A program made the position numbers and the translations under genes. From a virus: a stretch of DNA of 25,172 nt. Positions 3,560-9,325 of this stretch are shown one piece after another. Numbering within the stretch: the stretch's first letter is position 1; the number at the start of each line of letters is the position of its first letter. The notes under the pieces were generated by a model that saw nothing but the letters and a program-made list of their open reading frames with translations, ran no database searches and was not told the origin of the DNA. The stretch covers positions 1 through 25,172 of the IMG/VR virus record IMGVR_UViG_3300012204_000252. The stretch is one strand, 5' to 3'.

Positions 3560-3684
3560 TGCAACCGCTGGACCTCATCATCATCGATCCGTTTGGCGTT
3601 GTGGTCGTGCTCGCGCTTTATGCGGTCTATCTGGCGGCGAAGCCGGAGAGGCGACGACGGATCGCGCGGATTCCACGGATATGA
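3559..3684 (+). CDS. Small membrane protein with strong ribosome-binding site
   Basis: A 41-residue peptide, MQPLDLIIIDPFGVVVVLAL continuing AVYLAAKPERRRR, with one membrane helix (about 12-27) followed by a strongly basic tail, giving a predicted N-out, C-in orientation. AAGGAGG lies 12 bases before the ATG. The start is in a TGATG overlap and the end in an ATGA overlap (3681-3684), so this short gene fits the operon exactly. Function unknown. Confidence 0.6.
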   Translation: MQPLDLIIIDPFGVVVVLALYAVYLAAKPERRRRIARIPRI

Positions 3685-3986
3685 ATTCAGGCGCGCAAAG
3701 TGTCGAAGAAGACACGGCGGCCGTCCAGGCCGCAGAGCCAGGTTCGAGTCCTGGGGCGCGCTCCAGTTATCAATTGGGACAGTCGCTCCTGGTGCGCTCT
3801 CGAATCGAACTGATCGGGCTACGGCAATCTGGCCGCGGCGTGCTGTACATTTACGAAGCGGAATCTTTCAGCCAGTTCTTCGGTGAGCTCGAAGCACTGC
3901 GTGAATACGCGAGACAGCGGTACCCGGAAGCGGAATTTCACGAGACGTTGCTGGACGGTTTTTTTGAGGTGTCGGAAAAACTTTAG
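3681..3986 (+). CDS. Unknown early protein whose first codons overlap a tRNA-like fold
   Basis: A 101-residue protein. The first about 28 residues (MNSGAQSVEEDTAAVQAAEP and on) are translated from the tRNA-like element at 3691-3765 and look unstructured. The rest (IELIGLRQSGRGVLYIYEAES, then a helical SQFFGELEALREYARQRYPEAEF) reads like a compact alpha/beta domain I do not recognise. The start is an ATGA overlap. If the RNA element is cut out of the transcript, only an internal start after 3765 could give protein, and no clear ribosome-binding site is visible there. It ends just before a host-like CACAGATG repeat. Confidence 0.55.
   Translation: MNSGAQSVEEDTAAVQAAEPGSSPGARSSYQLGQSLLVRSRIELIGLRQSGRGVLYIYEAESFSQFFGELEALREYARQRYPEAEFHETLLDGFFEVSEKL
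3691..3765 (+). ncRNA. tRNA-Gly-like cloverleaf with encoded CCA
   Basis: Seventy-five bases fold into a full cloverleaf: acceptor GCGCGCA/GGCGCGC (6 of 7 pairs), D-stem GTGT/ACAC, anticodon stem GCGGC/GCCGC, variable AGAG, T-arm CCAGG-TTCGAGT-CCTGG, discriminator T, then CCA. The T-loop is canonical. Positions 34-36 read TCC, the glycine anticodon for GGA, and G1-C72, C2-G71, G3-C70 and U73 also match glycine identity. Against a normal tRNA: base 33 is G, base 8 is A, and the 8-nt D-loop CGAAGAAG has no GG. It lies inside a predicted coding sequence. Confidence 0.6.
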
Positions 3987-4015
3987 CCACAGATGGACAC
4001 GGATTTTCACAGATG
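3987..4015 (+). repeat. Host-like nonamer repeat CCACAGATG/GACACGGAT/CACAGATG
   Basis: Degenerate 9-bp units fill the only 26-bp spacer in this part of the operon and supply the ATG of the next gene. The pattern resembles intergenic repeats I recall from Verrucomicrobia and Planctomycetes chromosomes. Confidence 0.55.
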
Positions 4016-4834: not shown

Positions 4835-5335
4835 ATGAACGCGGAGCTGACGTACAGGATGGAAATGGCGCGCGTGCTCGAGGCGCGGATCCGTGAGGCA
4901 GAGACGGTACAGGAGTGCGCTGGTTCGGACCTGGCTTTTCATCGTGCGCTGAAATTCTGGCACGAACAAATTATTGGCGGATTGCAATTGTCAGTTGAAG
5001 AGCTTGCGCCGATCCGGGCGGAAGTTTTGCCAAACGGCGGCGGTGAGCTCGCGGAATTTATTCGAGCGCTGGAGTACGGCGAAGTGCCGGCACCGCAAAT
5101 TTCAAATGGCGCGGGAAGCATAGAGTCGATGTGCCTTTCTACCGGGAAGGAGAGTTCGGTTAAAGTCCGGGCTCGCGCTCCAATTTCTAAAACAAAGGGA
5201 CGGAGTCTTTTCGAGAAGCGCGCGCGCGACCCGATAGCTGCTGGCAAGAGCTCGCCAGACGCGACAAGAGACTCCGTCCCGCTCGTTCCAAGCGACGAGA
5301 AATCCCGGGAGGTGATGGCGCAATGGCGAGAGTGA
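4835..5335 (+). CDS. Early protein with repeat-derived C-terminal half
   Basis: A 166-residue reading frame. Residues 1 to about 88 (MNAELTYRMEMARVLEARIR, then a helical, acidic region to LEYGEVPAP) look like an ordinary helical phage protein of unknown function. From about residue 90 on, the frame runs first through a tRNA-like cloverleaf (5109-5182) and then through a long inverted repeat (5197-5280), and the residues become Arg/Lys/Ser-rich and disordered. I infer that the original C-terminus was replaced by these elements. The end overlaps the next gene by 13 bp. Confidence 0.55.
   Translation: MNAELTYRMEMARVLEARIREAETVQECAGSDLAFHRALKFWHEQIIGGLQLSVEELAPIRAEVLPNGGGELAEFIRALEYGEVPAPQISNGAGSIESMCLSTGKESSVKVRARAPISKTKGRSLFEKRARDPIAAGKSSPDATRDSVPLVPSDEKSREVMAQWRE
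5109..5182 (+). ncRNA. Second tRNA-Gly-like cloverleaf with encoded CCA
   Basis: Seventy-four bases in which every arm pairs: acceptor GCGCGGG/CTCGCGC (7 of 7, one G-T), D-stem GCAT/ATGT (4 of 4, one G-T), anticodon stem CCTTT/GAAGG (5 of 5, one T-G), variable AGAG, T-arm TTCGG-TTAAAGT-CCGGG (5 of 5, two T-G), discriminator T, then CCA. Anticodon loop CTACCGG has the expected T33; 34-36 read ACC, the glycine anticodon for GGT. As in the first element, base 8 is A and the D-loop (AGAGTCG) lacks GG; here the T-loop also departs from TTCRANT. Confidence 0.5.
5197..5280. repeat. Long inverted repeat (15-bp arms, 54-nt loop)
   Basis: GGGACGGAGTCTTTT (5197-5211) pairs with AAGAGACTCCGTCCC (5266-5280) with a single T-G wobble. 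Inside the loop CTGGC/GCCAG forms a second hairpin (around 5240-5257). It starts 14 bases after the second tRNA-like element. The arms resemble chromosomal repeats rather than a terminator, and no T-run follows. Confidence 0.65.
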
Positions 5336-6422: not shown

Positions 6423-6731
6423 ATGCGGAATTTTACCACGAAGGACACGAAGCTCGCGAAGGCGAGATTTGTTGTTTGTGCTGCAATACGAAGCAGAATG
6501 AGTGGCCGCATTATCTGCGGCGCCAGGCATCTCGACGACGTCATGCGGTCGCACGCGGCGGGCAAGCGCAATTTGCGCATTGAGTGGCGCGGCGCGGAGC
6601 AGGGTTTCATTGATCAATTCGGCAATTTTCTAACGCGCGAGCGGGCGTGGAAAGTCGCAGCGAAAGCTGGCCAGATTCGAAACCCACTCGACGGTCGCCG
6701 CGGCTATTTGTTCAGCGAACACCTGTACTGA
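6423..6731 (+). CDS. Conserved phage protein (IICGARH...AGQI family), unknown function
   Basis: The first about 26 residues (MRNFTTKDTKLAKARFVVCA and on) are translated from a nonamer repeat and are probably not native; the functional start may be the ATG at 6501 (MSGRIICGARHLDDVM). From there the protein resembles a short phage family in which an I-x-C-G-x-RH start is followed by EQGFIDQFGNFLTRERAWKV and an AGQI end; the biochemical role is unknown. It ends in a TGATG overlap with the next gene. The break in the ATGA chain upstream coincides with the repeat. Confidence 0.7.
   Translation: MRNFTTKDTKLAKARFVVCAAIRSRMSGRIICGARHLDDVMRSHAAGKRNLRIEWRGAEQGFIDQFGNFLTRERAWKVAAKAGQIRNPLDGRRGYLFSEHLY
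6435..6461 (+). repeat. Nonamer tandem repeat NNCACGAAG x3
   Basis: ACCACGAAG, GACACGAAG and CTCGCGAAG follow each other directly at the gene boundary. The pattern resembles a chromosomal repeat known to me from Verrucomicrobia and Planctomycetes. Confidence 0.7.
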
Positions 6732-6949: not shown

Positions 6950-7182
6950 GCAAGCTGAAACCTCCGTCGATGCATCCTGAAGACATGTACGAAGGCAAGG
7001 AGATGTTCGCCATATTCATTCGGCGCAAAGACGGCTCGGAATTCATATCGCACGGTCAACCGTCCGGACCCGCGCTGTTCTTTCAACGTTTCCGAGCTCG
7101 TGATTGCCAGCGCAAACTCAAAGAGCACAAGCTCAGCGGAGTCGTTCGCCGGGTCTCCGTCACGGTTCGTCCTCTCAAATGA
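6946..7182 (+). CDS. Small early protein, unknown function
   Basis: A 78-residue protein (MSKLKPPSMHPEDMYEGKEM, then FAIFIRRKDGSEFISHGQPS and a basic end VVRRVSVTVRPLK). The predicted structure is mainly beta with one central helix. Both ends are ATGA overlaps, placing it directly before the HerA-like ATPase. No family recognised. Confidence 0.6.
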   Translation: MSKLKPPSMHPEDMYEGKEMFAIFIRRKDGSEFISHGQPSGPALFFQRFRARDCQRKLKEHKLSGVVRRVSVTVRPLK

Positions 7183-8975
7183 GCAAGCTGCATATTTCTT
7201 CTTCGCTTTCGTTGCCGATCGATGCGGTGACGCAGAAGTTCGGGATCCTGGGCCGGACCGGGAGCGGCAAAAGTTATTTCGCGACAAAGCTATGCGAAGA
7301 AATGCTGGACGCGAAAGCGCAGATCGTGGCGTTGGACCCGGTAGGCGTGTGGTGGGGTTTGCGCGTGGGCAAAGATGGAAAAAGCGATGCGTACAAGATT
7401 CCAGTTTTCGGCGGGTTGCACGGCGATATTCCGCTGGAACCAGGCGGCGGCGCGCTGATCGCGGACCTGATCGTCGATAAAACGATTTCGGCGGTTGTCG
7501 ATCTTTCCAATTTTCTTTTAAGCGAGCAACGCCGGTTCGCGACGGATTTCGCGACGCAGCTTTTTCATCGGAAGAAATCGCAACGCTCCGCGCTTCATCT
7601 TTTCGTTGAGGAAGCGCAGGAGTTCGTGCCGCAACAGGTGCGCGGCGACGTGGCGAAGATGGTGGGCGCGTACGAGCGACTGCTGAAACTCGGCCGTAAT
7701 TTCGGGATCGGCGCGTCTTTAATTTCGCAGCGGCCGCAATCGGTGAACAAGGACGTGCTGAACCAGACGGAATGTCTGTTCGCGTTTCAAATGACCGGGC
7801 CACAGGAGCGCAAAGCGATTGAATCCTGGGTGGCCGAGAAAGGGCTCGACAAAGATATCGTGGGCGAGCTGCCGAAACTGAAAATCGGTGAGGCGCACGT
7901 GTGGAGTCCGCAATGGCTGGAGATTTCTAAGACGGTCAAGATCGCGGAAAAGAAAACTGCGGACGTGAGCGCGACGCCGAAGCCGGGTGTAAAACCGATC
8001 GAGCCGAAACAGCTATCACAGATCGAGCTGGAAGATCTGAGCGACAAGATGCTGGCCACGATCGAGCGGGCCAAGCAGGAAGACCCGAAAGAGCTGAAGA
8101 AACAAATTTTCGAGCTGAAACGCGAGCTGGCATCCAAAAAGGACCGAGCCGGTCAGGCGGTAATTGAAAAGATACGGACCGAATCAAAGCGCGTAGAGGT
8201 TCCGGTTTTGAAGGACGGGCAGATTACGCGCTTAGAGAAAGTCGCGGACCGAATCGACGCAAGTTTTGATCGCGCAGCGCGATCGCTCAAAGAAGCGTGG
8301 GAGGCTTGCGTGTCGCAATTCGAGCCAATCAACGCAGCAATTGCAAAGATTCGCGACGTCGGGACATTGCAGCCGACACGGCTGCCGCTACAGCCAAACC
8401 ACTATTTAATAAAACGAAAGGAGCGAGGCGGAACAGTTGTGCCGAGTCGCGCTCGGCATCAGGACGCAAGTGCACATAGCAGAGGCAGCGGGGCAACTGG
8501 CACTGTCTCTGCGGATGAGGTTTCGCTCGGCATTGGCGAGCGGCGGTGCGCGATCGCGATTGCGCAGCATCCGAACGGCGTGATGCGGGAGCAGCTCACG
8601 ACGCTCACTGGTTACAAGCGATCGACGCGCAATACTTATCTGCAGCGGTTGCTGGCAGCCGGCTGCGTGACGCAAGTCGGGGAACGTTTCGCGATCACCG
8701 AAGCAGGGATTGATTGGATCGGCAGCGATTATCAGCTGTTGCCGACTGGCGCGGAGCTGCAGCGTTATTGGATCGATAAATTGCCTGCCGGCGAGAGCGC
8801 GATTTTCCAGGTTGTTCTCGATAATCCTGGCGGCATCACGCGTGAAGAGATCGGCGAGAAAACAAATTTCAAGCATTCGACGCGCAACACTTACATCCAG
8901 CGCCTGGCCGCGCGCGAGCTCGTTACCATTTCCGGCGACGTGGTGCGGCCGAGCGAAACGCTTTTCGAATCATGA
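7179..8975 (+). CDS. HerA/FtsK-like ATPase with two C-terminal winged helices
   Basis: A 598-residue protein of the HerA/DUF87 ATPase type. Walker A is GRTGSGKS (25-32), Walker B is ALHLFVEEAQEF with Glu145-Glu146, and RNFGIGASLISQRP (174-187) is the sensor region usual for this class. Residues about 255-345 are a charged, coiled-coil-like stalk (KELKKQIFELKRELASKKDR). The C-terminal part holds two related winged helices with STRNTYLQRLLAAG and STRNTYIQRLAARE, an internal duplication. The linker between (about 398-446) is encoded by repeat DNA, including a perfect copy of the 24-nt palindrome. The start is ATG 7179 in an ATGA overlap; the frame is open further upstream. HerA-like enzymes move along double-stranded DNA; here a role in replication or recombination of phage DNA is likely but not proven. 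Confidence 0.85.
   Translation: MSKLHISSSLSLPIDAVTQKFGILGRTGSGKSYFATKLCEEMLDAKAQIVALDPVGVWWGLRVGKDGKSDAYKIPVFGGLHGDIPLEPGGGALIADLIVDKTISAVVDLSNFLLSEQRRFATDFATQLFHRKKSQRSALHLFVEEAQEFVPQQVRGDVAKMVGAYERLLKLGRNFGIGASLISQRPQSVNKDVLNQTECLFAFQMTGPQERKAIESWVAEKGLDKDIVGELPKLKIGEAHVWSPQWLEISKTVKIAEKKTADVSATPKPGVKPIEPKQLSQIELEDLSDKMLATIERAKQEDPKELKKQIFELKRELASKKDRAGQAVIEKIRTESKRVEVPVLKDGQITRLEKVADRIDASFDRAARSLKEAWEACVSQFEPINAAIAKIRDVGTLQPTRLPLQPNHYLIKRKERGGTVVPSRARHQDASAHSRGSGATGTVSADEVSLGIGERRCAIAIAQHPNGVMREQLTTLTGYKRSTRNTYLQRLLAAGCVTQVGERFAITEAGIDWIGSDYQLLPTGAELQRYWIDKLPAGESAIFQVVLDNPGGITREEIGEKTNFKHSTRNTYIQRLAARELVTISGDVVRPSETLFES
8369..8392 (+). repeat. 24-nt dispersed palindromic repeat, copy 2 (reference copy)
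   Basis: Core AGCCGACACGGCT, flanked by GC before and GCCGCTACA-type sequence after. It is an exact reverse complement of the three copies inside the 16605-18692 gene. Confidence 0.85.
8440..8458. repeat. Perfect hairpin in the ATPase linker region
   Basis: TGCCGAG-TCGCG-CTCGGCA gives a 7-bp stem with a 5-nt loop, translated in frame. Together with the 24-nt repeat at 8369 it marks the inserted linker. Confidence 0.6.
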
Positions 8976-9325
8976 GCGCGAATTCGAAAATCGAATGGAC
9001 AGAAAAAACGTGGAACCCCATCGCGGCCTTCCTGAAGCGCGACATCACAGTAAACATCGGCGGCAGAGATCGCGTAATTCCAAAAGGCACACGTGGCTGG
9101 TTCTGTGTGAAATGCTCGCCTGGCTGCGCGCATTGCTATGCGGAAGGAATCAATCTGCGGCTTGGCAACGGGCTCACGTATTTGCATCGCAATCTCAGCG
9201 ATATCGAGTTTCGCCTGGTCAAGTATTCGGCGTCATTGCCGAATGAATGGACGGCCGATTTGCGAATTCGTGAGTTTCCAACGCCGCAGTCAGCGCCAGC
9301 GGCTACAGCGGAGATCGCGCGATGA
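8972..9325 (+). CDS. Short phage Gp37/Gp68-type (DUF5131-like) cysteine-cluster protein
   Basis: A 117-residue protein beginning MSANSKIEWTEKTWNP, the signature start of the phage Gp37/Gp68 family, followed by a cysteine cluster CVKCSPGCAHCYAE (Cys45, Cys48, Cys52, Cys55) that would bind a metal or iron-sulfur centre. Family members I remember are around 230-300 residues; this one stops after about 100 recognisable residues and ends in PTPQSAPAATAEIAR, encoded by low-complexity sequence. So it is probably a truncated version, or a short natural variant kept for the cysteine domain alone. ATGA overlaps at both ends show it is still part of the operon. Confidence 0.75.
   Translation: MSANSKIEWTEKTWNPIAAFLKRDITVNIGGRDRVIPKGTRGWFCVKCSPGCAHCYAEGINLRLGNGLTYLHRNLSDIEFRLVKYSASLPNEWTADLRIREFPTPQSAPAATAEIAR

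Follow-up and report, generated by a model that had tools for sequence, protein, structure and literature searches.

The stretch analysed here (the window) is an IMG/VR virus record of 25,172 bases, which comes with no completeness estimate and is possibly partial. It opens on the minus strand with a gene (1-1236) that we call integrase-like from our reading of its sequence and position; the gene has no Pfam match of its own and is 93% identical to the gene at the corresponding place in L034, a 31-kb contig and the sole relative found with the window's early region. A Cro/CI-type repressor gene (1918-2334, HTH_3) is followed by plus-strand early genes, a HerA-like ATPase, a replication-O-like gene, terminase, a lambda-type portal, an S49 protease and capsid. 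The HerA-like ATPase, which has a MarR-type C-terminus (7104-8975), is a conserved gene of the window's phage group, with 95 IMG/VR relatives by alignment scan. The window resembles a temperate phage of the lambdoid kind, and its right end is probably missing. A truncated DUF5131 gene of 117 amino acids (8972-9325) covers profile positions 17-72 of 243. Two short stretches, 3982-4014 (CACAGATGGACACGGATTTTCACAGATG) and 6435-6465 (of the ACCACGAAGGACACGAAG type), are common to L043, a contig that we take to belong with Verrucomicrobiota genomes, which may hint at the host.

Two tRNA-Gly-like elements, E1 (3691-3765) and E2 (5109-5182), lie on the plus strand between the repressor gene and the HerA-like and replication genes, a position that fits the early operon to which a previous sequence-only reading had assigned them. 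E2 consists of an acceptor stem (5109-5115/5172-5178), A8-A9 (5116-5117), a D arm (5118-5132), an anticodon arm (5134-5150) with anticodon ACC (5141-5143), a variable loop AGAG (5151-5154), a T arm (5155-5171) with the loop TTAAAGT, U73 (5179) and an encoded CCA (5180-5182). Its stems pair at 7+4+5+5 = 21 of 21 positions, five of them as G-U (6-67, 10-25, 31-39, 49-65 and 50-64), and its anticodon loop, CTACCGG, has seven nucleotides and U33; a cloverleaf scan confirmed these features as they had been read. The sister element E1 forms 20 of the 21 stem pairs and carries the anticodon TCC (3724-3726) within the loop CGTCCAG, which has G33, as well as the T arm CCAGG TTCGAGT CCTGG (3738-3754) and CCA (3763-3765). 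In both elements C32 could pair with G38, making the anticodon loop smaller.

Both E1 and E2 depart from the canonical tRNA core (U8-A14, G18-G19 with U55-C56, and U33). Position 8 is A in both, and the D-loop GG that had been reported missing is lost by half, as G18 is kept and G19 lost in each. Compared with canonical phage tRNA-Gly(UCC), the D loop of E2 reads AGAGTCG instead of AGAGGTT, so that G18 stays and G19 becomes U, and its T loop reads TTAAAGT instead of TTCGAGT, with C56 replaced by A. From our reading of the alignment, the tertiary pair G19-C56 would therefore have been exchanged for U19-A56 in E2; A19-U56 is found in three members of the model alignment described below. The main determinants recognised by bacterial glycyl-tRNA synthetase (GlyRS) are G1-C72, C2-G71, G3-C70, U73, C35 and C36, and all of them are present in both elements. 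E1 and E2 are divergent phage tRNA-Gly genes that have kept the main GlyRS determinants.

On neither strand of the window does any CCA-ended cloverleaf besides E1 and E2 reach 18 of the 21 pairs. Among 400 first-order Markov copies of the window, searched on both strands, two cloverleafs had 19 pairs and none had 20 or more, which rules out chance cloverleafs, as had been argued from the sequence. One other CCA-ended cloverleaf with at least 20 pairs was found in 1.49 Mb comprising the window and other loci, mainly those of relatives; it has no tRNA-like T loop and was not called by ARAGORN. ARAGORN reported 0 genes in the window, missing both elements, and an Rfam scan of the window reported no tRNA, presumably on account of the atypical D loop and position 8. 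A weak Rfam match of the SpF41 sRNA over E2 (E 0.9, under the gathering score) was at chance level. Against annotated phages, blastn found no match for the region or for E2; for E1 it gave no more than short half matches, to mycobacteriophage tRNA-Trp, which we discarded.

Each element lies in frame inside an open reading frame, and neither frame encodes a recognisable enzyme. E1 falls within the first 29 codons of an ORF of 101 amino acids (3681-3986, plus strand), the ATG of which overlaps the stop of a preceding short ORF (ATGA); in L034 the E1 stretch is swapped for a different sequence of about 230 bases between the same flanking genes. E2 lies inside an ORF of 166 amino acids (4835-5335, plus strand), and a search with this ORF found no locus encoding a relative. 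L034 has a gene sharing its N-terminal part and C-terminal tail, with a different linker in place of the one that bears E2, and E2 is thus not conserved with its surrounding gene. The sequence-only reading had set conservation of the protein frame against conservation of the stems; in L034 the former is seen for the N-terminal part and the tail, and neither the linker nor E2 is kept. Conservation of the tail may not be for coding, because it coincides in part with the next gene's ribosome-binding site. Just 3' of E2 and still inside the ORF is a long imperfect hairpin on the plus strand (GGGACGGAGTCT...AGACTCCGTCCC, 5197-5280), over whose stem a mir-967 match was at chance level. The L034 linker has other hairpins (GGGCGCGCGCGGG...) where the window has E2 and this hairpin, so that the linker seems to collect palindromes.

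We also considered a tRNA-type attachment site and rejected it: E1 and E2 are complete cloverleafs that lie 2.4 and 3.9 kb away from the integrase gene, and not the 3' part of a host tRNA beside it. About 0.3 kb beyond the L034 integrase gene, the 3' half of a tRNA ending CCCGAGC-A-CCA (L205:540-572), which is not of glycine type, is the probable attachment site.

To place E1 and E2 among phage tRNAs we used a covariance model of 29 phage tRNA-Gly sequences, 27 with A8-A9 and none from the window. It matched both elements over their full length, E1 with 71.4 bits (E 2.4e-17) and E2 with 53.0 bits (E 2e-12); the third match in the window had 10.3 bits. On the contigs that carry A8-class tRNAs, members of the class mostly score 59-89 bits, and the remaining tRNAs mostly do not exceed about 55, which makes E1 a clear member and E2 borderline by score alone. 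The covariance analysis that had been suggested, made on an alignment of ten, showed pairing in 94% of cells, and 13 pairs had changes in both partners. The relatedness and glycine identity proposed for the two elements are therefore borne out, as both match the class model and keep the determinants. They are not two independent sequences, being members of one large phage tRNA-Gly class, and not a private two-member family, as dozens of IMG/VR contigs proved to hold tRNAs of this type when scanned with a pattern.

A narrow A8-A9 glycine-type pattern was found in at least 80 IMG/VR contigs, where most of the matches are tRNA-Gly(UCC) according to ARAGORN; an example of the type is GCGGGTG AA GTGT TTGTGGTT ACAC G ... 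CTTCCAA ... TTCGACT ... CGC T CCA. A first pattern built on AGAG had returned nearly all canonical U8 tRNA-Gly, so that AGAG is a usual variable loop of tRNA-Gly(UCC). The narrow pattern occurred in 0 of 247 bacterial genomes from the phylum of an Acidobacteria MAG (G013) and in 1 of 249 from that of a Hyphomicrobiales MAG (G015), and this single match among 496 genomes is not an evident A8 cloverleaf and is probably due to chance. Judged by narrow-pattern sequences in these two phyla, A8 marks a virus-typical class of tRNA-Gly. Positions 8-14 in the sampled phage tRNA-Gly, a sample partly selected for A8, are U-A 33 times and A-U 33 times, so that A8 represents a swapped tertiary pair. Many members of the class have canonical CTTCCAA loops, are placed in tRNA arrays and look like decoding tRNAs.

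A query of the A8 type matches Streptomyces phage genes annotated as tRNA-Gly over their full length. E1 and E2 share the cloverleaf, the glycine acceptor end and CCA with such A8-A9 phage tRNA-Gly(UCC) genes, for instance gene 19 of Streptomyces phage Alone3, but differ from them in lacking G19 and in being uncalled by ARAGORN, E1 further by its G33 and E2 by its anticodon ACC and A56. The T arm of E1 is identical to that of the L146 tRNA, and its loop CGTCCAG recurs in L130 and in the mom-adjacent tRNA of L229. One further tRNA-like sequence (L183:5470-5541), also uncalled by ARAGORN, has a glycine-type acceptor end and T arm and an anticodon-arm loop without a glycine anticodon. A search of related prophages for the pair had been suggested, and it was not found: L034 has neither E1 nor E2, and no A8-class tRNA-Gly occurs in 98 loci of relatives (terminase and HerA type), the stronger model matches there being other tRNAs that ARAGORN calls.

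The product of Mom is N6-carbamoylmethyl-adenine, in which a glycinamide is carried on C6. A link between the A8 class and mom was found post hoc through unusual members of the class, and was then tested once on a mostly independent set of Mu-type mom genes. The A8 tRNAs of two AT-rich contigs, L125 and L136, lie wholly within ORFs of 274 and 246 codons, both of which encode Mom (PF25680, E about 1e-43 to 1e-44). Searching 48 contigs with an A8-type tRNA and the window for PF25680 gave Mom in seven, L215 and L218 among them, and a tRNA-Gly is in frame within the 3' end of mom in L125/L148 (mom 1547-2371, tRNA 2257-2330 in L125), L136/L157/L160 (mom 129-869, tRNA 737-810 in L136), L215 (mom 1000-1839, tRNA 1037-1110) and L218 (mom 541-1545, tRNA 569-639). 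In L215 and L218 the tRNA comes after the Mom domain and before the stop codon; Mom of L215 and Mom of phage Mu share 48% identity. Together the embedded tRNAs of L125, L136, L215 and L218 span three diverged lineages.

For the Mu-type set, an alignment scan for Mom was followed up in 80 of 410 IMG/VR loci. The tRNA model gave ten matches in these 80 loci, eight of them with E < 1e-5, and all eight are in frame at the 3' end of mom, with nothing comparable elsewhere in 393 kb. The eight loci represent six distinct ones, L233 being the same contig as L215, and L234 and L236 close kin. The elements at L234:2668-2742, L236:3167-3241, L239:1199-1268 (T loop TGCAACC), L242:3176-3244 (a 3-bp D arm and a 6-nt anticodon loop) and L266:3212-3280 belong to this group. 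In structure the elements of the group vary between a complete cloverleaf and heavily reduced versions of it, and all have GCG...CGC, U73, CCA and CC in the anticodon loop. Several have 6-nt anticodon loops or 3-bp D arms while keeping the glycine acceptor end and CC, and by sequence some of the mom-embedded tRNAs look unable to decode. Their alignment, which was fitted to the model (favouring the result) and includes two weak matches away from mom, has 95% of cells paired and 15 of 20 pairs changed on both sides, equalled by 0 of 500 shuffles. The constraint appears to be on the RNA, because the amino acids encoded there differ between lineages.

Most Mu-type mom loci (72 of 80) do not have the tRNA, and Mu mom itself has none of the A8 type; such mom genes could use the host's own Gly-tRNA. 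Counted by whole contig, Mom exceeds the cut-off in 7 of 49 contigs with an A8 tRNA-Gly (the window included) versus 4 of 48 without, a weak co-occurrence, and the argument therefore rests on the exact position of the tRNA in mom. The L130 and L143 contigs have a common tRNA-Gly with the CGTCCAG loop and two Mom genes each. Adjacent tRNA-Gly variants (L208:700-773 and 777-849) occur in a contig with two Mom genes; one has the E1 loop CGTCCAG, and the other is labelled tRNA-??? by ARAGORN, which gives it an anticodon of two letters. Nine diverged Moms, when aligned, varied too much to be used in a scan. In the open-access literature searched we found neither a tRNA-Gly in mom nor Gly-tRNA as donor described, and both may already be published.

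The link from mom back to E2 comes from Salinibacter phage B2_17 (OR896349.1), in which an annotated tRNA-Gly (L229:2085-2160) starts about 15 bases after the Mom match. Of some 700 phage tRNAs compared, this one is by far the closest to E2 (76% identity, score 38, the next scoring 22), and it resembles the window elements in its GCGC start, its AGAG variable loop and the CGTCCAG loop of E1. It differs in ending TCTA and in directly following a Mom gene, which the window lacks; the Mom gene of B2_17 appears frameshifted. The tRNAs nearest to E1 are mostly not linked to mom (L169, L146 and L184, then the mom-embedded L219). No PF25680 match was found in the 25-kb window, where a home-made Mom profile reached 4 bits only, and E1 and E2 adjoin no mom gene in this possibly partial record. 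The 31 kb of L034 contain neither Mom nor an A8-class tRNA-Gly.

We tentatively prefer to see E1 and E2 as glycine carriers to a non-ribosomal enzyme, although we put this somewhat short of an even chance; the role is one that we infer, since this possibly partial contig has no Mom gene. E2, with E1, would be made as part of the early operon transcript, with host RNase P/Z doing the trimming, and from the determinants present both are predicted to be charged by host GlyRS. Normal decoding by E2 is doubtful because its core and anticodon loop are altered, and the Gly-tRNA would instead pass to a non-ribosomal transferase of the Mom type that the phage encodes, presumably beyond the 25 kb; in some other phages with the A8 class, Mom shares a transcript with the tRNA. 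The glycyl group would move from the tRNA to adenine N6, giving N6-glycyl-adenine, the free amine of which would attack C6, and a rearrangement would leave the carbamoylmethyl (glycinamide) group on C6. A part in glycine supply had been among the functions suggested from the sequence, and it draws indirect support from the A8-type tRNAs within or beside mom in other phages, against which stands the lack of Mom in the window. For the cell-wall crosslinking and mRNA-processing roles suggested alongside it we found no support. A cellular parallel is the non-proteogenic tRNA-Gly of staphylococci, which has an altered D loop and feeds FemX/A/B in building the pentaglycine bridge. E1 and E2 resemble it as glycine tRNAs with altered D loops, and it too works outside the ribosome, but it has another sequence and no enzyme of the FemX/A/B type was seen in the window.

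Alternatively, E1 and E2 may be ordinary if divergent translational tRNAs (Gly-UCC and Gly-ACC) that aid protein synthesis by the phage or stand in for host tRNA that defence nucleases cleave, their anticodon loops changed to escape these nucleases. We take this as a serious possibility without leaning towards it. E2 has U33, a 7-nt loop and a restored 19-56 pair, some members of the A8 class lie in tRNA arrays, and one study (PMC10264068) describes how phage tRNAs whose anticodon loops are altered escape host defences that target tRNA. Against it, E1 has G33, the C32-G38 pairing possible in both elements would give a smaller loop, and the nearest relative of E2 is mom-linked. Moreover, neither UCC nor ACC suits GGC, which makes up 309 of the 466 glycine codons counted in the window (GGT 46, GGA 55, GGG 56). 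One paper (PMC6720975) describes tRNA-Gly with A34, as in the anticodon ACC, as excluded from almost all organisms; ARAGORN calls ACC for the L125/L148 tRNAs as well.

It is improbable that the two are relics, copies of tRNA-Gly that were inserted in early ORFs and are now drifting without function. The L034 gene that lacks the tRNA and has other hairpins in its linker would agree with this, as would the deviating positions in the D and anticodon loops. However, 20 and 21 of the 21 pairs are intact even though the sequences of E1 and E2 differ widely, the 19-56 pair of E2 is compensated and the glycine determinants are kept in both. Still less probable, and by a wide measure, is a cis-acting function as tRNA-shaped RNase P/Z sites at which early mRNA is cut: this would suit the in-frame placement of both elements inside ORFs and that of E2 just before a long hairpin, but U73, the anticodon CC and an encoded CCA would be unnecessary for it and yet are all kept. 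We give almost no credence to tRNA-dependent lysogeny, known in mycobacteriophages (PMC10865867), in which the phage tRNA would stand in for a host tRNA-Gly gene broken by integration. The phage is temperate and its integrase gene is close to the tRNAs, which would suit this reading, but the tRNA end beside the 93% identical L034 integrase is not of glycine type, and L034 lacks E1 and E2.

The reading of E1 and E2 as glycine carriers bears on the donor of the group that Mom places on DNA, which appears unsettled; the sole statement that we found names an acyl-CoA such as glycyl-CoA (PMC7824862). The predicted structure of Mom has a GNAT fold and matched Mu Mom (PDB 8BV8), no aminoacyl-tRNA transferase being among the structure matches listed. 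The fold suits acyl-CoA donors at least as well and leaves the donor undecided. Mu itself has no such tRNA, but an A8-type tRNA-Gly sits at the 3' end of mom (PF25680) in several other phages, and a seemingly non-decoding tRNA-Gly inside the mom of several diverged phages points to Gly-tRNA as donor. More broadly, phages may carry a family of non-decoding tRNA-Gly, often within the mom frame, that brings glycine to DNA adenines or another non-ribosomal target, with E1 and E2 as free-standing members, although we hold this wider proposal to be rather doubtful. Standard tRNA finders miss some viral tRNAs, as they did here. If true, the proposal would amount to a tRNA-dependent modification of DNA and would give a new reason for phages to carry tRNAs.
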